A stretch of 20,303 nt of DNA from a virus. The stretch spans positions 1 through 20,303 of IMG/VR virus record IMGVR_UViG_3300008450_000615; one strand, given 5' to 3'. This document shows, piece after piece, positions 429 through 19,417 of the stretch. The notes beneath the pieces are model-generated. The model was not told the origin of the DNA. It saw nothing but the letters and a program-made list of their open reading frames with translations, and did no database searches. Both the position numbers and the translations under genes were made by a program. Within the stretch, counting starts at the first letter, position 1; each line of letters begins with the position of its first letter.

Positions 429-857
429 TTAGATAAAATCTCGACGGAAAAACTTAGCTAATATATTATCATTATATGAATTAGCACCTAATAAACAATC
501 ACTTAAACATTGATAATGTACTTCAAAATATGTAAGTTGTTTTTTGGTTTTACATAGACGTAAGATAAGACATTCAAAATGCTCTGGTCCTAATTCTTTA
601 ACGTCTTGTATTAACTCTTTATTGGAACCCCAATAGTCTTCCCAATTACTTTCTTTAATAACTAATTTAGTTGAGGGTTTTTTACCACGAGCTGTGGGTA
701 GTGCGGCTAATTCCTTTTTGCCTAATTTAACATTAGTGTTATGGAAGAATGATTTCTTTCCAATATAGAATTTTCCATTTGTGAGGTTTGTAATTTTATA
801 AACAAAACCTGTGTAGTCTTCGGGGTTAAATTCGTCCCCACATATCCATTTATTCAT
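429..857 (-). CDS. GIY-YIG family endonuclease (free-standing, Seg-like)
   Basis: This 142-aa protein carries the GIY-YIG nuclease signature as GFVYKITNLTNGKFYIGKK at residues 17-35. A later candidate catalytic glutamate (E112 in YFEVHYQ) and SYN at 127-129 correspond to the ERENFW and GYN parts of I-TevI. The segment WEDYWGSNKELIQDV (72-86) is typical of a compact family common in T4-like and marine phages. These enzymes cut DNA and are often mobile homing endonucleases; others serve in host DNA degradation or repair. I see no DNA-binding domain beyond the small nuclease core. After YIG the family's usual arginine position holds lysines (KK), so activity is not assured. The ATG at 855-857 gives a sensible N-terminus, 15 bases after the upstream gene. 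Confidence 0.75.
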   Translation of the reverse strand: MNKWICGDEFNPEDYTGFVYKITNLTNGKFYIGKKSFFHNTNVKLGKKELAALPTARGKKPSTKLVIKESNWEDYWGSNKELIQDVKELGPEHFECLILRLCKTKKQLTYFEVHYQCLSDCLLGANSYNDNILAKFFRRDFI

Positions 858-872
858 AACAATCTTTTTATT

Positions 873-1469
873 TTATTTTAAAGTTATAACATTCCAACCA
901 TTTTCTTTATCTAATTTAGCACTAGGTAATTGTTTTCTAATATATGCTAAATATAAATTTTCTCTTTGTGCACCATTATCACTAATTTGGGTGTCTTGAT
1001 TTACTGGAGGGTTATTGTTGGATTTAAATTTTTTATTAGGGGTTAGGTTATTTGTTGATCTAATCTTAGCAGCCGGGATAAAAAGTAAATATTCTATTCC
1101 TTTATGCTTATTTAATACTGTTTTAATAGAATTTACAACAGTACCCATCACACCAAAAAGATATCCCTTATTAATTTCAGGAAAAACCCATGCACCGTTT
1201 TCAATAATCCCAAAATCTACTTTAGCAGCATTTCCTCTATATTTAGATAAATTAAATCCTGATTTATTAGCATCATCATCCGGAGATTGACTAATAATAT
1301 TATCTTTATCAGCTAAAGTTATAGCAATCCAAAAATTATCAATAGGGAAATTAGGATCATCAATTTTAAAAAAAATTGTTTTTCCATCATCTGTTTTAGT
1401 TGTGTTGAATGTTTTAGAGGCTTCTCCTATTTCCTTTAATAAATCTACTAGTTTAATCATCTTATTCAT
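873..1469 (-). CDS. Uncharacterised protein with shared N-terminal MIKLVDLLKE peptide
   Basis: This frame encodes 198 aa as opened (ATG at 1467-1469). The likely start is the second ATG at 1458-1460, because from there the protein begins MIKLVDLLKEIGEAS, which aligns exactly with the start of the upstream neighbour (MIKLVDLLKE). With that start the gene sits one base after the neighbour's stop; with the first ATG it overlaps by 8 bases. After the leader comes a mixed alpha/beta region (KTIFFKIDDPNFPIDNFWIAITLAD), then a Lys/Asn-rich linker (about 138-160) and a charged C-terminus. I recognise no catalytic motif. The N-terminal amphipathic segment could be a targeting signal (see findings), which would make this a packaged or structural accessory protein; that is inference. 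Confidence 0.6.
   Translation of the reverse strand: MNKMIKLVDLLKEIGEASKTFNTTKTDDGKTIFFKIDDPNFPIDNFWIAITLADKDNIISQSPDDDANKSGFNLSKYRGNAAKVDFGIIENGAWVFPEINKGYLFGVMGTVVNSIKTVLNKHKGIEYLLFIPAAKIRSTNNLTPNKKFKSNNNPPVNQDTQISDNGAQRENLYLAYIRKQLPSAKLDKENGWNVITLK
1431..1460 (-). repeat. 30-base imperfect direct repeat, copy 1 (N-terminal leader codons)
   Basis: This segment encodes the N-terminal MIKLVDLLKE of the 198-aa protein. It matches 2035-2064 at 27 of 30 positions. It is a coding repeat shared by two adjacent genes, suggesting a duplicated or conserved leader peptide. Confidence 0.7.
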
Positions 1470-2064
1470 TTAATTTATATCCACTTTTAATAAACCACAT
1501 ATCATTTTTAGGTGGGGTAGCCGGTGGAATATAATCTTCATCCGGACCTAATCTAGATGCTAATCCTTTTTTAACTAAATCTTCCCACATACTAAACCCA
1601 TCATATTTACCAGTTTGTTTATTATACAAAAATATAAAGTCTGAAGTGAATTTATCAAAATTTGGGAAATTGTTTTGTAACCATTCATTAAAGGATTGGT
1701 AGAAATTCCTCATAATACTTTTTCCTTTATATTTAGGATATATTTCTACTTTTTGAATTTGTAATGAAATTTGACCTGTTTCTTTATCTTTATATAATAT
1801 AGCAAGAAATCTACCAACTTTATCTTTACCTTTTATAATATCAATAATAAATGAATTACCTTGACTAGTTTTATATTTTAAAGTATAATCATCAAATTTA
1901 GCACCATTAACTTGCTTAATCTTATTTAACCATTCTGTAGTTTCCTTACCTTTAATAAATCTACTAATAGCACCTAATACTTTAGTCAAACCAGAATCTT
2001 CTACTGGCTTCTCTGCTGGAGTAATTTGGCTTAATTCCTTCAATAAATCTACTAACTTAATCAT
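1462..2064 (-). CDS. Possible GNAT-fold acetyltransferase-like protein with MIKLVDLLKE leader
   Basis: This 200-aa protein begins with the same decapeptide, MIKLVDLLKE, as the next gene downstream. The middle part alternates beta strands (FIIDIIKG, RFLAILYKD, SLQIQKVEIYP). It then reaches VEIYPKYKGKSIMRNFYQ at 106-123, resembling GNAT motif A (beta strand 4, then the P.(R/Y).G.G....L acetyl-CoA loop). The later segments GFSMWEDLVKKGLASR (156-171) and MWFIKSGYKL (189-198) would suit the end of such a fold. GNAT-type proteins do occur in phages. Two of the glycines in the acetyl-CoA loop are replaced (KGKSIM), so cofactor binding is uncertain. The start is one base beyond the stop of the 115-aa gene (TAA-A-ATG), consistent with translational coupling. 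The function is a structural guess from pattern only. Confidence 0.5.
   Translation of the reverse strand: MIKLVDLLKELSQITPAEKPVEDSGLTKVLGAISRFIKGKETTEWLNKIKQVNGAKFDDYTLKYKTSQGNSFIIDIIKGKDKVGRFLAILYKDKETGQISLQIQKVEIYPKYKGKSIMRNFYQSFNEWLQNNFPNFDKFTSDFIFLYNKQTGKYDGFSMWEDLVKKGLASRLGPDEDYIPPATPPKNDMWFIKSGYKLNE
2035..2064 (-). repeat. 30-base imperfect direct repeat, copy 2 (N-terminal leader codons)
   Basis: These are the first ten codons of the 200-aa gene. They differ from 1431-1460 at three positions, all synonymous or nearly so, because the encoded decapeptide is identical. Confidence 0.7.
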
Positions 2065-2065
2065 T

Positions 2066-2413
2066 TTATTTATCGTATCTAATTACAAATGTCATGTCTG
2101 TGTTTTGTGATAATGATATAGGTTGTCCTAATTTAGCTACTGCCAATAATGTATTATCTTCATTATATAAACCTATAGTTGTAACATATGGTTCAAAATA
2201 TGATGCTGTTGCAAAATCTTTTACCTGAGGTAGAGGAGTGTTCAATGATTGAGACATAAAATTACTTCCCGACTGTAAATTATCTTGCAATAATGTTGGA
2301 TTGTATGAAAGATTAAATTCATTATCCTTAACATGACAAATCACATTTTGTTGATAAATAGTTACTTCATTTTGGAAAGTAATATTAAAGCTTGGCGGTG
2401 GTGAAAATGACAT
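2066..2413 (-). CDS. Small structural protein, stand-alone copy of a tail-protein C-terminal module
   Basis: This 115-aa protein is largely a free-standing version of the last ~90 residues of the 340-aa structural protein at 4625-5647. Two blocks align: HVKDNEFNLSYNPTL (27-41) with RVKNQDFNYTTNPSI (268-282), and TTIGLYNEDNTLLAVAKL (78-95) with TTIGLYNDNNELLAVAKL (303-320). Both proteins also end in a short beta strand (FVIRYDK here, IKVKLDY there). I recognise the TTIGLYN...LLAVAKL block as recurrent in structural proteins of uncultured marine T4-like phages, but I know of no assigned biochemical role. It is likely a virion or tail-surface component. The start MSF follows the 268-aa fibre-like gene by 17 bases; no alternative upstream start is needed. 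Confidence 0.65.
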   Translation of the reverse strand: MSFSPPPSFNITFQNEVTIYQQNVICHVKDNEFNLSYNPTLLQDNLQSGSNFMSQSLNTPLPQVKDFATASYFEPYVTTIGLYNEDNTLLAVAKLGQPISLSQNTDMTFVIRYDK

Positions 2414-2430: not shown

Positions 2431-3237
2431 TTAACCTAGATCAGGATTTAAAGGAACACAATTTCTAAATTGTACATCTAATACTTCCCCAAAATTATTA
2501 ATTTGGTAAAAATATCCATTACCTAGCTCATTCTGAGAAACCCATGTATCAATAAAATAATATAGATTACCACCAACATATGGAGAATAAATAGTAGGAA
2601 AAACTGAAGTGGCTTCTAAAATTATAGTACCTACAGTTAACGGATTTGGTATAGTAATATTTGCTGGGGTGGCGATAAATATCCCAGTATTTACAATAGC
2701 AGTAGAATTAATAACATTTATGCAAGCTTGAAAAGCATCATTCCCCCCAGGTGTTACTAAATAAAATCTATCATTATAAACTAGAGGAGTAGTTGCCGAA
2801 GGTGTTCTAGTAGGAGATGGAGAAGGAGATGTAGATTGAGATGCTCCAGGTGTAGATGTGGGTGTTGGGGTAACAGAGTTAGATGGTGGTGGAGTAAAAC
2901 TAGGAGTTCTTGTTGGACTAATAGAAACAGTTTTACTTGGAGTTCGACTAATAGATACAGAACGAGTTACACTTGGTGTTGTAGTAATAGTAGGTGTAAC
3001 AGAAGGAGTCCGTGAAGGAAAAGGTACATTTTGTTCTGTAAAACAACCAAAAGATATATCATATATAGCAACAGAAGATGAAGGTATTATATCTGGAAAG
3101 GTTATTTGATAACCATTTACTAACTGGTCTTGAGTAACTCCTGAATCATAAAGATTTAATCCACTACTTCCTGATAAATAAATATTGAAAGGGCCGGGAG
3201 TATTTCCTTGAGTATAAGATATTGTAAATGTAGGCAT
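2431..3237 (-). CDS. Tail fibre/appendage-like protein with Ser/Thr/Pro repeat linker
   Basis: This 268-aa protein has three parts. A small beta-rich N-terminal domain (1-72) begins MPTFTISYTQ. A low-complexity linker at about 75-149 is made of TPSV/SPSP-type units. A C-terminal beta-rich domain (about 152-268) includes YNDRFYLVTPGG and two cysteines. Such proline-spaced Ser/Thr linkers commonly separate an attachment domain from an exposed tip domain in fibre or decoration proteins, so a host- or surface-contacting role is likely. No enzymatic motif is visible. The neighbour upstream (446 aa) has the same kind of linker, and the two share exact 16-base DNA repeats, so the genes may have exchanged or duplicated sequence. 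It lies in the fibre end of the late operon. Confidence 0.6.
   Translation of the reverse strand: MPTFTISYTQGNTPGPFNIYLSGSSGLNLYDSGVTQDQLVNGYQITFPDIIPSSSVAIYDISFGCFTEQNVPFPSRTPSVTPTITTTPSVTRSVSISRTPSKTVSISPTRTPSFTPPPSNSVTPTPTSTPGASQSTSPSPSPTRTPSATTPLVYNDRFYLVTPGGNDAFQACINVINSTAIVNTGIFIATPANITIPNPLTVGTIILEATSVFPTIYSPYVGGNLYYFIDTWVSQNELGNGYFYQINNFGEVLDVQFRNCVPLNPDLG
2791..3015 (-). repeat. Degenerate Ser/Thr/Pro-coding repeat region
   Basis: This tract codes residues ~75-149 of the 268-aa protein, built of short units such as TPSVTP, SPTRTPS and SPSPSP. The repetition is irregular compared with the array at 3485-3670. One exact 16-mer (agttacacttggtgtt on the plus strand, 2965-2980) recurs in the neighbouring gene. 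Confidence 0.75.
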
Positions 3238-3259: not shown

Positions 3260-4600
3260 TTAAATACATGGATTACTAGATATACAATCACTACAATCTA
3301 TATATGTAGAAGGGGATTCTAAACCACTCCATGTTTCATTAGCAACAACTCCTGTTCCTGCAGTAACAATAAAACATCTTTTATCAACTGAAGTAACTGA
3401 CGAACCTATGAAAGCAGCAGGTAATACCATTGTTCGTTTTGCCCCAGTACAACAATCAACAACTGATCTAACAGCTAAAGGTGATGAAGGGGTTATTGAT
3501 GGAGTTATAGATATAGTTACACTTGGTGTTGCTGTTACACTAGGTGTTTTAGTTACACTTGGCGTTATACTAGGCGTTACACTAGGTGTTCTAGTTACAC
3601 TTGGTGTTCTAGTTACACTTGGTGTTACAGTTATACTAGGCGTTATACTTGGTGTTACACTTGGAGAAGATGCTAATCTAGCAATTCCAATTTCAAATTC
3701 ACATTCTGGGTCGGTTACATATATAGTAACACTAGCTGTACTACTCATTAATGGAGCACAATATGACCCAGTAGTTAAGAATGTATAAAAAGTTTGGTAG
3801 GTTCCTAACCCTAACCCGGAAAAAGATAATGATATAGAGTTATCTGAGCCTGTACTAAAGAAATTAGCATTCCCTCCAAATATTTGAATAGAATTATCTA
3901 TTAATGTATTTCCTCTTAAATCATCATTTAATAAAGGATAAAATGAGAATGTTAATGGATTTGGATATTCATTTCTCATTAAAGTATAAGTTTCATCATA
4001 AGCTACAGCAGGTAATACAAAAGCATTCTGATAATCCTGATTTGTAATCACAATAGTACCCTCAGAATAAAATATATTTCCAGCATGGGTAGGTGAGGGA
4101 TTAATTAGATTATCATAAACATTTCCTTTACCATCATCGTAAAAATTATAATTAGATGATGACATTTGAAATGAATATGGTAAAACTTTATTACCATATG
4201 CTTTAGGAGATATTTGAATTACTCTAATAGTTTCATTTGCTCCTGTTGGAAAATATGAAATAAAGGCAGGATCATTATTAAAATTAAAAAATGAAGCTGA
4301 TGGGTGTTGACTACTAGCTGATAAGTAATGAATAGAAGAAGCTAGAGATGATGTATTTAAACTTCCCGAGTATTGATGATAGAATAATTGATTAATTTGT
4401 CTATAGGTAAGTCTATCATAATGTGTATTAGTTGTAGGCTCATTCCCTGGATTAAAAGAATTAGTATAATTAGTTCCATTATATACTGAAATGTAAGGGT
4501 CAGTAGAAGGAAGAGGACAATAGTTAAAATTCCAAGTTCTATTTGCTATAACAGGTATGGTTATAACATCTGATGATTTTAACTGTTTGAATGATCCCAT
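3260..4600 (-). CDS. Tail fibre/adhesin-like structural protein with TPSV tandem repeats and Cys-rich C-terminus
   Basis: This 446-aa protein begins MGSFKQLKSSDVITIPVIAN, a start I recognise from structural proteins of uncultured marine T4-like phages. Residues 1-200 (including NHLFYHQYSG-like QINQLFYHQYSGSLNTSSLA) form the conserved domain. Residues ~200-300 look like an Ig-like beta domain ending VTIYVTDPEC. Residues 311-372 are a TPSV/TPSI tandem linker. Residues 375-446 form a small cysteine-rich tip with C383, C384, C409, C436, C439 and C445 (YIDCSDC...NPC). This layout, anchor-linker-tip, suits a tail appendage or receptor-contact protein. The YIDC element resembles that in the four-Cys modules of the 1734-aa protein. 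The start sits 24 bases after the 340-aa gene; the upstream spacer is AT-rich with no ribosome-binding motif. Confidence 0.65.
   Translation of the reverse strand: MGSFKQLKSSDVITIPVIANRTWNFNYCPLPSTDPYISVYNGTNYTNSFNPGNEPTTNTHYDRLTYRQINQLFYHQYSGSLNTSSLASSIHYLSASSQHPSASFFNFNNDPAFISYFPTGANETIRVIQISPKAYGNKVLPYSFQMSSSNYNFYDDGKGNVYDNLINPSPTHAGNIFYSEGTIVITNQDYQNAFVLPAVAYDETYTLMRNEYPNPLTFSFYPLLNDDLRGNTLIDNSIQIFGGNANFFSTGSDNSISLSFSGLGLGTYQTFYTFLTTGSYCAPLMSSTASVTIYVTDPECEFEIGIARLASSPSVTPSITPSITVTPSVTRTPSVTRTPSVTPSITPSVTKTPSVTATPSVTISITPSITPSSPLAVRSVVDCCTGAKRTMVLPAAFIGSSVTSVDKRCFIVTAGTGVVANETWSGLESPSTYIDCSDCISSNPCI
3485..3670 (-). repeat. Tandem repeat array of 12-base TPSV/TPSI units
   Basis: This array codes residues 311-372 of the 446-aa protein. 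On the plus strand the units read as variants of ttacacttggtg followed by tt/ct. The exact 16-mer agttacacttggtgtt occurs at 3515-3530, 3593-3608 and 3611-3626, and again in the next gene at 2965-2980. Such arrays are prone to copy-number change by slippage or recombination. Confidence 0.85.
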
Positions 4601-4624: not shown

Positions 4625-5647
4625 TTAATAGTCTAATTTTACTTTTATTAAAGCTTCCTTAGTAAAATCTTTTACTAATGGTTTACTTAATTTAGCCACA
4701 GCTAATAATTCATTATTATCATTATATAATCCAATAGTTGTTATAAAAGTTTGAGGATTATTAATTAATGTAGTATAAAGTAAATTTCCATTAGCATCTA
4801 TAATTGATGGATTAGTTGTATAATTAAAATCTTGATTTTTTACCCTAGTAAAGAAATAATGAGCTGACACATTTTCAGAAGATTGCAAAGCAAAATTAGC
4901 ACTAGAAGACATTAAACCATAAATTTGGGAGGGTAAATCATCATTATTTCCTGGGGAGTTTATAGTAGGTGAAAATGCTATTCCTCCATCTATTACGGAT
5001 TTACTTAAAGCTGTGGGGTTTAAGATAATAATATCACTTTGAGGAAATAAATACCCATAAACAGAAGCATTTACAGAGGCAGTAGCAGCCACTCCGACAC
5101 TACCCGAAACCAAAGTATAATATAAAGCCCCAGCTGTAGTATAATTTGTGGTAGCAGAGATCTGACTATTGTCTGTTAAAGAAATTTCAGCAGCACCGTT
5201 TTTTAATTTTAATGTTAAAGATCCAGGATTAATATGTTCTTTATATCTATTTCTAGCTATGTTAATAATATACATATCATTTGGTTTGTCTATTCCAAAA
5301 TCAAAACTTCCACTTTCTGTTCCTAACAATAATGTTCTATATTGCCCATAAACTACTCTAGAGGTAGTTAAGGATGACCCATCAGGCATTACTGTATTAA
5401 TAGAAGAGTTAATATAACTGGATCCGTTTCCTAGTTTATTTCCATATTGTATAGCCATCTGAACAGATGATGTAGTAGAAAGTAAAGCTCCGGGATATTC
5501 ACTATATACATTTAAATAAAATGGGCTAGTAATAATACTAGATGTAAAAAAAGTAGTTAAAGTATTAAGATTACCACTCCACATTGGTCTTACTACGGTT
5601 TCTGTACTTACTACTGAGTCTTCTGGATTGTATCTTACGAATGACAT
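4625..5647 (-). CDS. Conserved phage structural (tail/baseplate-associated) protein
   Basis: This 340-aa protein starts MSFVRYNPEDSVVSTETVVR. Its N-terminal half (about 1-160) includes TESGSFDFGIDKPNDMYIIN (110-129) and ARNRYKEHINPGSLTLKL (131-148), which I recognise as conserved in structural proteins of uncultured marine T4-like phages. The C-terminal module (about 255-340) contains FITTIGLYNDNNELLAVAKL and is duplicated as a separate 115-aa gene at 2066-2413. No enzyme motif is present. The middle is Ser/Thr/Ala-rich and beta-prone, as in virion surface proteins. It is encoded three bases after the 220-aa tail protein in the same run of genes, pointing to assembly in the baseplate or fibre network. 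Exact role unknown. Confidence 0.65.
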   Translation of the reverse strand: MSFVRYNPEDSVVSTETVVRPMWSGNLNTLTTFFTSSIITSPFYLNVYSEYPGALLSTTSSVQMAIQYGNKLGNGSSYINSSINTVMPDGSSLTTSRVVYGQYRTLLLGTESGSFDFGIDKPNDMYIINIARNRYKEHINPGSLTLKLKNGAAEISLTDNSQISATTNYTTAGALYYTLVSGSVGVAATASVNASVYGYLFPQSDIIILNPTALSKSVIDGGIAFSPTINSPGNNDDLPSQIYGLMSSSANFALQSSENVSAHYFFTRVKNQDFNYTTNPSIIDANGNLLYTTLINNPQTFITTIGLYNDNNELLAVAKLSKPLVKDFTKEALIKVKLDY

Positions 5648-13093: not shown

Positions 13094-14905
13094 TTAAAAA
13101 GTTACAACTCTACCCTGTATATCTAAATCAGGGTATCTTATTTCAAATATAGCAGGATCTAAAGAAGGGTATAAAATATCACTTCTAAAAGCACCAGCAA
13201 CATCATAACTAAAAGGGGAATAATTGCCTCCTGATTTGTTTGTAAATTCAATTTTAACTACAGATTGTACTCCTTTTATTTGAAGTAAAATTGAGTTGAT
13301 ATTTGAAATTATAATGGGTTGGTTAATTTGCCATTTATCTATATGAAAATAATTGGTTAAAGCATTTATACAGTCTGTTAATACCACATTACTACTCAAC
13401 CCAGGATTAATAGTTATATCAAAGTTTAATCCTAAATTGATATAATATGCATCTTTAATTATTATAGCATCAGTAACCATCCTAAAAGGCTCCAAATATT
13501 CTTTTAAATTATTTTTTAACTCAGTAGTTACATTATCTAATTTCTTATTATTATTGTATGATAAAACATACATAGATAAAGCTAAAGGATTATTATCAAT
13601 TAAAGGATCATTACCTGGGCTTGAAGACAATGCTGAAGCTTGTTCAACATATACTTTAGCTATATTTCCAAAATCTGAAGGCATGCTTAAAGCACGAGTC
13701 ATATAATCATCTTTTGTTACTGCTCTTAATTGTGCTGAGAATGCATTAAGTGTGTTTAAACGTATTTCTTCTATAGTATCACCACTTCGGCCACCCATAG
13801 AAGGTATTGGATTACCTGCGACTAAAGTGCTAAGAGATGCGTTGGTGTAAATGGGGTTAAAAGCTCCTATATTATTAGTAGAAGCAATTATAGTAATATT
13901 ATTTGCTGGTAAATTAGCCTCTATTCCTCCTCCTGATAGATATTGAACATTTAAAACTACTTGAGAAGGAACAGTACCATATTGTTTAGTATAAAATACA
14001 GCAGCTTGATTATAATTGTTAACTAAATCTGAGGTATCAGCAGAAGGCACCATTCCTAATAGAATATTATCAGGAGTTGGGATAATTAAATTATCATCTT
14101 GATTCACATACATCCCAGACCCAAATTGTAGTTCTACAACACCATCTGTTCTAATTCTAGATACAAATCTATTAGGAGTTTCAAGTAAACTTATTAAATA
14201 GGGTACTTGATTAGAAGAGGGACCTGTATTAACTGTTTTATTTATAATAGTAGATTGAGCTAAATAAGGCACTTCATACCATTCACTTCCATCATTCCCA
14301 TTAACATCGATTATTTGAAGAAAGTTAGGATCATTTATTTCAACTGATGTAAATTTTACAGGTGCTCCAAAAGTAAATGTAGCTGTCTTTACTTCAGCTG
14401 ATATTGCTTTTACTGATTGTTTAAACAAGTAGTTATTCCCATCAAATAAACTAATTTCTGTAGATCCTGTATTAGTAAAATCAACTTTCTGGGTTGTTAC
14501 AAATTTAGTTTGGGTTGAGTTTGATGAAAGTACAGTATTTTCAGGAATTATAAGAGCATAATCTAAATTAGGGGCATTATTAAGAATAGGGACTTGTTGA
14601 TAAAAATCAATTGTAGTAACAGAAGCATATGATAATTTAGGACGATATCCTAAAGAATATGCCATATTAAATAAATTTTCCTTTTCCTTAGCGGTTAATA
14701 CAAAATTCTCTTGTATTTGGGTATCTATATAAAAAGATAAAACATCTCCCACATATGAAGACATCTCAATAAACATAGTACCAGGAGATGTATCTGAAAA
14801 ATCAGTATAAGTATTGGGAAAATAATTCTTAGCAAAGTCAATCAGAGATGCTTTATACTGAGTGAAGTTCTTATTTAAATAGGATATGTTTTTGTTTTGG
14901 GCCAT
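13094..14905 (-). CDS. gp6: Baseplate wedge protein, gp6/baseplate-J-like
   Basis: This 603-aa protein has a diagnostic N-terminal block. FSDTSPGTMFIEMSSYVGDV at 36-55 is followed by LSFYIDTQIQENFVLTAKEK (56-75) and ENLFNMAYSLGYRPK. This is the hallmark of baseplate J/T4 gp6 family proteins, with the P......E..........YY.D....E......A...EN....A...GY.P pattern. A central GRSGDTIEEIRLN segment and later DYMTRALSMPS (~402-412) continue the family pattern. The C-terminal part ends with EPFRMVTDAIIIKDAYYINL. Its length is close to T4 gp6 (660 aa). In T4, gp6 dimers form the backbone of the baseplate wedge. It follows the gp25-like gene with a shared base (TAATG at 14903-14907), the conserved gp25-gp6 pairing of contractile systems. 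Confidence 0.88.
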   Translation of the reverse strand: MAQNKNISYLNKNFTQYKASLIDFAKNYFPNTYTDFSDTSPGTMFIEMSSYVGDVLSFYIDTQIQENFVLTAKEKENLFNMAYSLGYRPKLSYASVTTIDFYQQVPILNNAPNLDYALIIPENTVLSSNSTQTKFVTTQKVDFTNTGSTEISLFDGNNYLFKQSVKAISAEVKTATFTFGAPVKFTSVEINDPNFLQIIDVNGNDGSEWYEVPYLAQSTIINKTVNTGPSSNQVPYLISLLETPNRFVSRIRTDGVVELQFGSGMYVNQDDNLIIPTPDNILLGMVPSADTSDLVNNYNQAAVFYTKQYGTVPSQVVLNVQYLSGGGIEANLPANNITIIASTNNIGAFNPIYTNASLSTLVAGNPIPSMGGRSGDTIEEIRLNTLNAFSAQLRAVTKDDYMTRALSMPSDFGNIAKVYVEQASALSSSPGNDPLIDNNPLALSMYVLSYNNNKKLDNVTTELKNNLKEYLEPFRMVTDAIIIKDAYYINLGLNFDITINPGLSSNVVLTDCINALTNYFHIDKWQINQPIIISNINSILLQIKGVQSVVKIEFTNKSGGNYSPFSYDVAGAFRSDILYPSLDPAIFEIRYPDLDIQGRVVTF

Positions 14906-15315
14906 TATGTTATATTAATTATTACACTATCAGATTGATTTGAAAGTAGTATTGTATAATCCATTGTTACTGCTAAAGTATTTTCATCTTCAAAAGGTAC
15001 TAAATCAATAAAATTTACGGTAATTTCTGGTAGATATTGGTCTACAGCAGTAGTTATACTGTTTTTAATAAGTGGAAATGTTTCGTTTGTAATAGGTTCA
15101 AATAATTGTTGTTTTAAAATTGTGCCAAAGTTAGGGTGTCCAATTCGCTCTCCTTTAGATGTTAAAATTAAATTAATTAAATTATATTTAATCTGCTCTC
15201 TAGTAGAATATACACTATTAAATACTCCGGGAGCATCAAAAGGTAAAGCAACTCCTATAGCTGTATTAATTTGAAAATCTCTAGGATCAACCCTATTACT
15301 TCTTATATAGGCCAT
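14905..15315 (-). CDS. gp25: Baseplate wedge protein gp25-like (GPW/gp25 family)
   Basis: This 136-aa protein is close to T4 gp25 (132 aa). It contains NTAIGVALPFDAPGVFNSVY, then STREQIKYNLINLILTSKGE (37-56), RIGHPNFGTILKQQLFEP (57-74) and the tail TTAVDQYLPEITVNFIDLV. The LLLT..GER...P.FG..L..(L/F)F.P core is the signature of the gp25/GpW family. In T4, gp25 joins the wedge to the hub and sheath and is essential for contraction-competent assembly. It is the first of the recognisable wedge genes here, and its stop overlaps the gp6 start by one base. It also overlaps the previous gene's stop by one base (TAATG at 15313-15317). Confidence 0.92.
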   Translation of the reverse strand: MAYIRSNRVDPRDFQINTAIGVALPFDAPGVFNSVYSTREQIKYNLINLILTSKGERIGHPNFGTILKQQLFEPITNETFPLIKNSITTAVDQYLPEITVNFIDLVPFEDENTLAVTMDYTILLSNQSDSVIINIT

Positions 15316-15692
15316 TATTGAATATTTCTAAAATTACTTATTTCCGCAGGATTATTTCTCATATCATTAGCTACTTGAGCTAACATATCAGAATATATAT
15401 TTTGTTTTTCTGCAAATGTTGTAGGTGGAGCTACCGGAGGGGGAGCAATACCCATTTGATCCATTAAGGATTGGCGAATAGTTTCTTTACTAGCTGCCGG
15501 ATTGATGTTACTAGAGTTAAAGTTTAAAGTAGGCCACGCTCGACTATCAGAAACAGTAGAGTTAGGTTGGGTATGAGTTAATCCTATAGATAAGGATTCA
15601 TTAATTTTTTGTTTACCTAATTCTGCTAGTTCTTCTTTAAGAACTTCTCTTACGGCTTCTTTAATAAGGGTTTTTAATTCATTTGTTTTCAT
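15315..15692 (-). CDS. Small amphipathic-helix protein of the baseplate operon, function unknown
   Basis: This 125-aa protein starts MKTNELKTLIKEAVREVLKE. Residues 1-33 are a highly amphipathic, charged helix. A Ser/Asn-rich linker (34-70) follows, then a short helix (KETIRQSLMDQMGI), a proline stretch (APPPVAPPTT) and a helical tail (FAEKQNIYSDMLAQVANDM). The N-terminal helix type is common in small proteins of uncultured marine T4-like phages, but no biochemical role is assigned. It sits between the coiled-coil protein upstream and gp25 downstream, and shares a TAATG junction with gp25. The start ATG (15690-15692) is eleven bases after the previous stop; a TATAAATAT string on the plus strand lies in this gap, probably by chance. 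Confidence 0.6.
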   Translation of the reverse strand: MKTNELKTLIKEAVREVLKEELAELGKQKINESLSIGLTHTQPNSTVSDSRAWPTLNFNSSNINPAASKETIRQSLMDQMGIAPPPVAPPTTFAEKQNIYSDMLAQVANDMRNNPAEISNFRNIQ

Positions 15693-18646: not shown

Positions 18647-19417
18647 TTATGTTACCACATGACCTTTTGAGTAGTATTGGTTATATAGTTCGGAATATGA
18701 TATTTTTAGTTTTTTAATTATTTTAGTAATTTGAGGAGTATCTACATCTACTATTTCACGAATGTAAATGTAAAGTGCTTTTTTATTAAATATATCTAAG
18801 GATTCACATTTGCGAAATAATTCAATTATAGCATTAGCAGTTAAAGCATCAATTTCTTTAGGAAATAATTTACTTAAATTTTTATCTACATATTTAATGT
18901 ATAATTTCATAAACTCATTTACACTATAATCATCACTATAATACTCGTTTATAATTTCCTCTCTAATTGTCTTATCTTCATCTACTTCAATTAAATCACC
19001 TTTGTCTTGAAGTTTCTGGTAATTTTTCTTATTTTTAAGAATTAAATAACGTTTAGCTATAGTCCCAAAATAAGAATAAGCCTTACCTTTCTCTGGTTTA
19101 TATAATTTAAGTTTTTCAAGCAAAAAAGCAATTACTTCCTGCTGCACATCCTCTACAGATTCCCCATCAGTATAATAAAATTTAAACGTATGTATAATAT
19201 TTTGAGTCAATTTAAAAAATCCATACTCTATACGTTCACGATATACTTTATCTCTAAAATCCTGGTTAGTTGAAGCTACATACTCCAAAATAGCATCCTG
19301 GGTATCCTCAGTAAAATAAGTATTAGATGTTTTAGGTTTACGTTTACGAGGCTTTCCAGATTTAGTTAATTCAATAACTAAGGTTTTATTTTCTATTTCC
19401 ATTAAGATTGAAGTCAT
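18647..19417 (-). CDS. gp55: Late-transcription RNA polymerase sigma factor, gp55-like
   Basis: This 256-aa protein has a clear sigma region-2-type block. KLTQNIIHTFKFYYTDGESV (69-88) leads into EDVQQEVIAFLLEKLKLYKP (89-108) and EKGKAYSYFGTIAKRYLILK (109-128). This is the pattern of T4 gp55-like late sigma factors in aquatic phages, which bind host RNA polymerase core and direct it to late promoters. A basic patch, KPRKRKPK (22-29), precedes it. The C-terminal segment (TPQITKIIKKLKISYSELYN, 228-247) looks helix-turn-helix-like rather than the short acidic clamp-binding tail of T4 gp55, so promoter recognition may differ. The gene overlaps the membrane-protein gene by 32 bases if ATG at 19415-19417 is used, or 17 bases if the second ATG (residue 6) is used. 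Both starts are plausible. Confidence 0.8.
   Translation of the reverse strand: MTSILMEIENKTLVIELTKSGKPRKRKPKTSNTYFTEDTQDAILEYVASTNQDFRDKVYRERIEYGFFKLTQNIIHTFKFYYTDGESVEDVQQEVIAFLLEKLKLYKPEKGKAYSYFGTIAKRYLILKNKKNYQKLQDKGDLIEVDEDKTIREEIINEYYSDDYSVNEFMKLYIKYVDKNLSKLFPKEIDALTANAIIELFRKCESLDIFNKKALYIYIREIVDVDTPQITKIIKKLKISYSELYNQYYSKGHVVT

Follow-up and report, generated by a model that had tools for sequence, protein, structure and literature searches.

An N-terminal decapeptide recurring on dissimilar proteins of aquatic T4-type phages is probably a head-targeting leader

The internal proteins of the T-even phages, on whose genes Repoila et al. (1994) reportedly worked, are among the closest described counterparts of the proteins analysed here. 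As described in PMC3012670, they form a diverse set in which the targeting sequence alone is conserved, and according to PMC12373910 the injected proteins Ip1-3 inhibit different GmrSD enzymes. For the T4 internal protein IPIII, the account in PMC9026906 assigns residues 4 and 7 to targeting and residues 8 and 10 to processing, ten residues being sufficient; the same account reports that gp24 of T4 is cleaved, that gp23 carries a propeptide of 65 residues and that gp21 cleaves after L/I-x-E. In the T4 genome (NC_000866), IPIII starts with MKTYQEFIAE and gp24 with MAKINELLRE. An IPIII with Asp at residue 10 reportedly enters the head but stays uncut.

Here, we analysed a 20,303-base virus record (the window, i.e. 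the whole stretch of DNA under study), whose source is an aquatic T4-type phage. Two neighbouring genes on its minus strand encode proteins with the same first ten residues, MIKLVDLLKE. Gene A (873-1460, minus strand; 195 amino acids from the MIKL start, or 198 if an upstream ATG at 1467-1469 adds MNK) carries this leader at 1431-1460 (minus strand), followed by IGE↓A as a second candidate cleavage site (arrows mark putative cuts). Gene B (1462-2064, minus strand; 200 amino acids, predicted GNAT-like fold) carries it at 2035-2064 (minus strand). A first-pass annotation had remarked on the shared decapeptide and on an identity of 27 of 30 bases in the underlying DNA, and both observations hold, the three differences (codons 3, 4 and 8) being synonymous. 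It had also called the remaining bodies dissimilar, which is true of their sequences, as BLASTP yielded a single significant match between A and B at residues 1-15, but less so of their predicted models, both of which resemble GNAT folds. The AlphaFold2 model of B, built from a single sequence, has a mean pLDDT of 64; Foldseek returned a best E value of 2.7e-4 with TM-scores to the query of 0.25-0.40, and with VIA-align nearly all of the 50 matches listed bore the name of an acetyltransferase or of ICL2 (best Z 8.7). The earlier guess of a GNAT-like body is thus supported for B at the model level only; at E ≤ 0.1, B matches no Pfam profile, those of GNAT included, and no PHROG. For A (six sequences, pLDDT 66), the best Foldseek E value was 0.06, with none at 0.001, and the VIA matches listed were mostly acetyltransferases with a best Z of 8.1, a level that the tool calls common. 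Going by these models, B resembles a GNAT fold fairly clearly and A weakly; A has in addition a weak Pfam match to R2K_2 (E 0.0007, below the family cut-off). Both models place the leader, which might have turned out to be part of a folded domain, ahead of the folded body and render it as a short, low-confidence helix: in B, pLDDT drops under 50 at residues 1-5 and 7-22, and in A at residues 5-14.

An initial search for direct relatives of A and B in viral_contigs and the phage records came back empty, and megablast matched the window to nothing in the phage collection. Because direct relatives of the two genes were not found, related phages were retrieved via the window's gp6-like baseplate protein and not via the leader. 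This protein shares 43.5% identity with its counterpart in Flavobacterium phage immuto, and relatives of it are encoded by 57 viral contigs, 55 of them at 73-95% identity (best segment). One related contig, G002, holds an ortholog of gene A, which belongs to a leader-bearing family; for gene B, no relative was found in viral_contigs, the phage records or the collected loci.

Do related phages contain more such leaders, as the first-pass annotation had proposed to ask? They do: a scan of viral_contigs with the pattern MIKLxD[IL]LxE returned at least 120 stretches, and adding the matches from the window, from its relatives and from immuto brought the total to at least 169, with at least 162 distinct N-termini. 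After one 17-residue N-terminus at a contig end was left out, at least 161 distinct leader-bearing proteins of at least 50 amino acids each fell into at least 71 body clusters, 51 of them singletons. The clusters were built by single linkage of phmmer matches (E ≤ 1e-3), which may join unrelated bodies and can miss remote homology, perhaps also between A and B; the number of clusters is thus approximate. With one protein per cluster, positions 1-10 carried 1.4-4.3 bits of information and positions 11-26 carried 0.25-0.65. The search pattern presets most of the first ten positions but does not impose the drop after Glu10, and the pattern-free positions 5 and 9 reach 1.8 and 1.4 bits. Looser listings from the gp6-selected contigs showed the same leader form, with D, E, N or Q at position 6 and mostly E, in some cases D or Q, at position 10.

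In the window, a degenerate form of the leader pattern matched twice, whereas 100 dinucleotide shuffles gave 0.00 matches on average, and the nine gp6-selected relative contigs contained 14 exact matches against a mean of 0.008 and a maximum of 1 in 120 codon-order permutations. Within two mismatches, 27 matches were spread over nine of 11 records, and a reversed-pattern control gave none. Across 3300 open reading frames of at least 60 amino acids from the window, the nine relatives and immuto, all 18 occurrences of IKLxD[IL]LxE lay behind a start codon and none was internal. We called a match gene-start-like if it lay in an open reading frame of at least 60 amino acids with an in-frame stop within 60 codons upstream. 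This held for 147 of the 150 viral matches listed (120 loci), none of which fell into a closed frame of less than 40 amino acids, and for 29 of the 121 cellular-genome matches listed, 47 of which lay in frames of less than 40 amino acids and 42 of which had more than 100 open codons upstream. Among the cellular genomes, a contig of Prochlorococcus sp. AG-409-L21 contains two nearby genes that start with MIKFxDILKE and are possibly cyanophage DNA in that assembly. A codon-permuted pattern found 17 stretches in the whole viral collection, of which one counted as gene-start-like under the above definition. A chance origin of the shared leader, which is independent of body identity and nearly confined to gene starts, was rejected on these grounds and on the codon-order controls.

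The bodies behind the leader are varied. Among the 71 cluster representatives and ten chosen members, matches were obtained to AAA/zeta-toxin P-loop, NUDIX, RNase_T exonuclease and ART-PolyVal families, and further to cell-wall hydrolase, zincin-like, deoxyribonucleotidase and polynucleotide-kinase families, several of all these matches being weak. Each matched family accounts for one or two of the 71 representatives, and the Pfam and PHROG matches differ between members. Four of the ten chosen members have a Pfam match at E ≤ 0.01, and the matched stretches in this set start after residue 10, with the exception of a weak AAA_16 match at residues 3-36. Some bodies read as protein-kinase-like or histone-like. 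Three leader-bearing bodies were searched against the phage records to find leader swaps: the AAKIA/HHF body matched solely four immuto records, the histone-like body gave one partial match, and the HiPIP-like body matched seven records; in the best of them, that of Actinomycetia phage DSL-LC01, the match runs from query residue 16 and lies within a longer protein adjoining an annotated capsid maturation protease.

Genes A and B occupy a slot between two conserved borders, gene D upstream (2066-2413, minus strand; similar to part of the protein encoded at 4625-5647) and gene C downstream (429-857, minus strand; SegE-type GIY-YIG family). D and C are adjacent in ten contigs, in six of which the slot is empty (G006 and G008 look like one phage), and the other four contain five genes in the slot, every one of them leader-bearing. 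The window contributes A and B, G002 the ortholog of A, G001 an unrelated gene and G011 a kinase-like one. In all four filled slots, the ATG of the leader lies one base past the stop of D, and that of A also lies one base past the stop of B if A starts at MIKL. To judge from these sequences, the slot looks like a site of cargo exchange with the leader as its 5' border, the exchange mechanism being our interpretation. As an aside on annotation, two labels look wrong: 'NAD synthetase' (phrog_447, immuto gp100), given to a SegE GIY-YIG family protein (compare 429-857 in the window), and TiaS, given to immuto gp082, a homologue of a leader-bearing cargo protein. Immuto itself has gp231 as a leader protein and gp082 as a variant of one.

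A gp21-type prohead protease gene, whose presence the first-pass annotation had suggested checking, does occur in the relatives. PF03420 was detected in six of the nine gp6-selected relatives and in 17 of the 24 leader contigs of at least 47 kb (among 80 listed), including all six of at least 164 kb; relatives and leader contigs together, all eight contigs of at least 164 kb contain it, and in a 369-kb leader contig it appears as two partial matches in one frame. It was absent from seven of the 24 (48-126 kb, perhaps fragments), and there was no match in the window record, a 20 kb fragment. Among permuted-pattern contigs of at least 20 kb, a small control that was not size-matched, PF03420 was present in one of eight (one of the three above 150 kb). 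The gp23 capsid family (PF07068) was found in 14 of the same 24 leader contigs listed. An alignment to T4 gp23 of the capsid proteins from eight leader contigs, G001, G002 and immuto showed a V/I/L-x-E site at the position of T4 FLTE-65 in all 11 proteins, each followed by A, S or T.

The conservation of the leader, its near confinement to gene starts, its independence of the body, the turnover of the slot and the protease and capsid genes in relatives are the basis on which we propose that MIKLxD[IL]LxE is, with good probability, a 10-residue N-terminal head-targeting propeptide that works like the capsid targeting sequence (CTS) of T4. That the leader is cut exactly after Glu10 is suggested with more reserve. 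As many dissimilar proteins of related phages have the same start, the leader is probably a head-loading tag for delivery into the infected cell. We infer the following course of events: the short amphipathic leader helix would dock a newly made protein onto the scaffold within the prohead, and the gp21-type prohead protease would cut at a hydrophobic-x-Glu site, after Glu10 or slightly beyond, e.g. at IGE↓A in gene A. The body would then stay in the head beside the DNA and be injected together with the genome when the phage next infects a cell. The leader may be acquired by unrelated proteins for host takeover or counter-defence, and cassettes may swap where it lies, the slot between D and C being an example.

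But, could the leader serve a purpose outside the prohead? A docking or localisation motif for another target, such as the tail tube, the host membrane, a host protease or chaperone or a phage compartment, would agree with the lack of a clear P1' preference at Glu10 and with the position of the window's leader genes on the side of the tail genes (gp25-like, 14905-15315, same strand), away from head genes; moreover, our literature search turned up no virion proteomics of a carrier phage. However, the layout of the leader fits the N-termini of T4 IPIII and gp24, T4-type protease and capsid genes co-occur with it, Glu10 stands where a gp21 site is expected, and in G002 two leader genes are located among the head genes (at 150481 and 165828, with the protease at 152314), and we regard a non-prohead target as unlikely.

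The peptide might also be incidental to a DNA-level element, be it a recombination hotspot, a ribosome-loading site or a regulatory sequence. Such an element would account for slot junctions that fall exactly at the leader and for the leader DNA of A, which differs in one base of 35 from that of the unrelated gene in G001. However, leader DNA of the cluster representatives is identical at a mean of 22.7 of 30 bases, with several synonymous codons in use at K3, L4, D6, L8 and E10, and the differences between A and B are all silent, which argues that the peptide and not the DNA is conserved; on this codon variation we rejected a purely DNA-level element, and the whole line of explanation appears highly improbable. 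Hardly any weight can be given to the assumption that A and B are diverged GNAT-like duplicates which kept only their first ten residues. Both models do match GNAT folds, A's weakly, but the bodies share no significant similarity and the leader also precedes P-loop, NUDIX, exonuclease and ART bodies, which contradicts paralogy as its source.

If the decapeptide is a head-targeting propeptide, where might it be cut? Among the 71 representatives, A, S, G or T occupy position 11 (P1') in 34%, compared to 24.5% at positions 14-40, a weak enrichment that contrasts with the A, S or T behind all 11 capsid sites, and a second hydrophobic-x-E site near the leader was present in four of the 71 against 2.8 in shuffles; since there is no clear small-residue preference after Glu10, a cut at exactly this residue is putative. 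The motif EAR(V/I/T)xP occurs nine times in 2228 open reading frames from 12 sources, where shuffles predict 0.6, and each occurrence is in G002. Two of these sites follow MIKL-type leaders, two follow a second leader type (RLQKLAGIxE) and five lie inside two proteins, three of them in a protein of 539 amino acids; P3 is I or L in eight of the nine. One peptide behind differing upstream contexts suggests a common cut in this one genome. The 539-amino-acid protein (G002:165828-167480, minus strand) starts with the leader variant MKKLYDILKE, contains three internal xxE↓AR(I/V)xP sites and has a sequence like that of a protease-cleaved polyprotein. The second recurrent N-terminus, approximately M(K/S)KQ(F/Y)ITEAxR(L/M)QxLAGI, precedes dissimilar bodies in 15 proteins of G001, G002, G004, G006, G009 and immuto and is possibly another head-targeting leader, its QFITEA start being closer to EFIAEA of T4. 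Somewhat speculatively, the decapeptide and this second type could together define a large modular repertoire of injected effectors in aquatic T4-type phages, including polyproteins such as that of G002, which the prohead protease would cut at repeated (hydrophobic)xE↓AR(V/I)xP sites.

Some other genes of the window deserve mention in their own right. The protein encoded at 15315-15692 (minus strand) adjoins the gp25-like gene; its amphipathic N-terminus, MKTNELKTLIKEAVREVLKEELAELGKQKINESL, is found again in relatives, the rest being more variable. At 18647-19417 (minus strand), a Sigma-70 region 2 match lies barely above the Pfam cut-off (26.1 vs 24 bits), and the product may be a late sigma factor of the T4 gp55 kind. 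Long Thr/Ser/Pro repeats, e.g. TPSVTPSITPSVT, are a feature of the two proteins encoded at 2431-3237 and 3260-4600 (minus strand).

Injected effectors are among the first phage proteins that a host meets, and with a tag that can be searched for in DNA, candidates for such effectors could be listed from among the many hypothetical proteins of uncultured phages. A head-targeting role of the leader would extend the T-even mechanism, whose injected proteins inhibit restriction enzymes, to phages with cargo of the ADP-ribosyltransferase-like, NUDIX and zeta-toxin-like kinds, and for other T4-type phages the leader is a candidate for a short head-loading signal.

How does the leader compare with known systems? 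In phiKZ and SPN3US, head proteins are cut after a short Glu-ending motif by a distant relative of gp21, but the motif of phiKZ is S/A-x-E, and the description of the two phages in PMC9026906, as far as it extends, includes no comparable common decapeptide. The CTS of P1 DarB likewise sits at the N-terminus and directs a protein into the head of a myophage, but, according to the account in PMC9024508, it is longer than nine residues and its authors found no consensus among Dar N-termini. With T4 IPIII and gp24, the leader has in common a length of ten residues, hydrophobic positions 4, 7 and 8, an acidic position 6 and Glu10, whereas T4 IPI (MKTFKEFTST) lies outside this exact 10-residue form. 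Nearest in sequence is the propeptide of gp24 (MAKINELLRE↓S, presumably cut at Glu10), with K3, I/L4, an acidic residue 6, L7, L8 and E10; gp24, however, is a vertex protein of the shell and not injected cargo. The layout is thus common with IPIII and by eye nearer to gp24, ten residues being too short to prove homology with the T4 internal protein leaders. In the open-licence literature searched, we found no earlier description of the leader. Like the T4 CTS, it is N-terminal, about ten residues long and placed on dissimilar bodies in phages with gp21 and gp23. It differs in sequence, MIKLxD[IL]LxE having low identity to the start of IPIII with layout and Glu10 shared, and in its carriers, which are aquatic phages outside the T-evens; its cargo is broader and often enzyme-like, and its targeting and cleavage are read from sequence. 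The class of mechanism is one known from T4, while the sequence of the leader, the breadth of its cargo and its spread look new.
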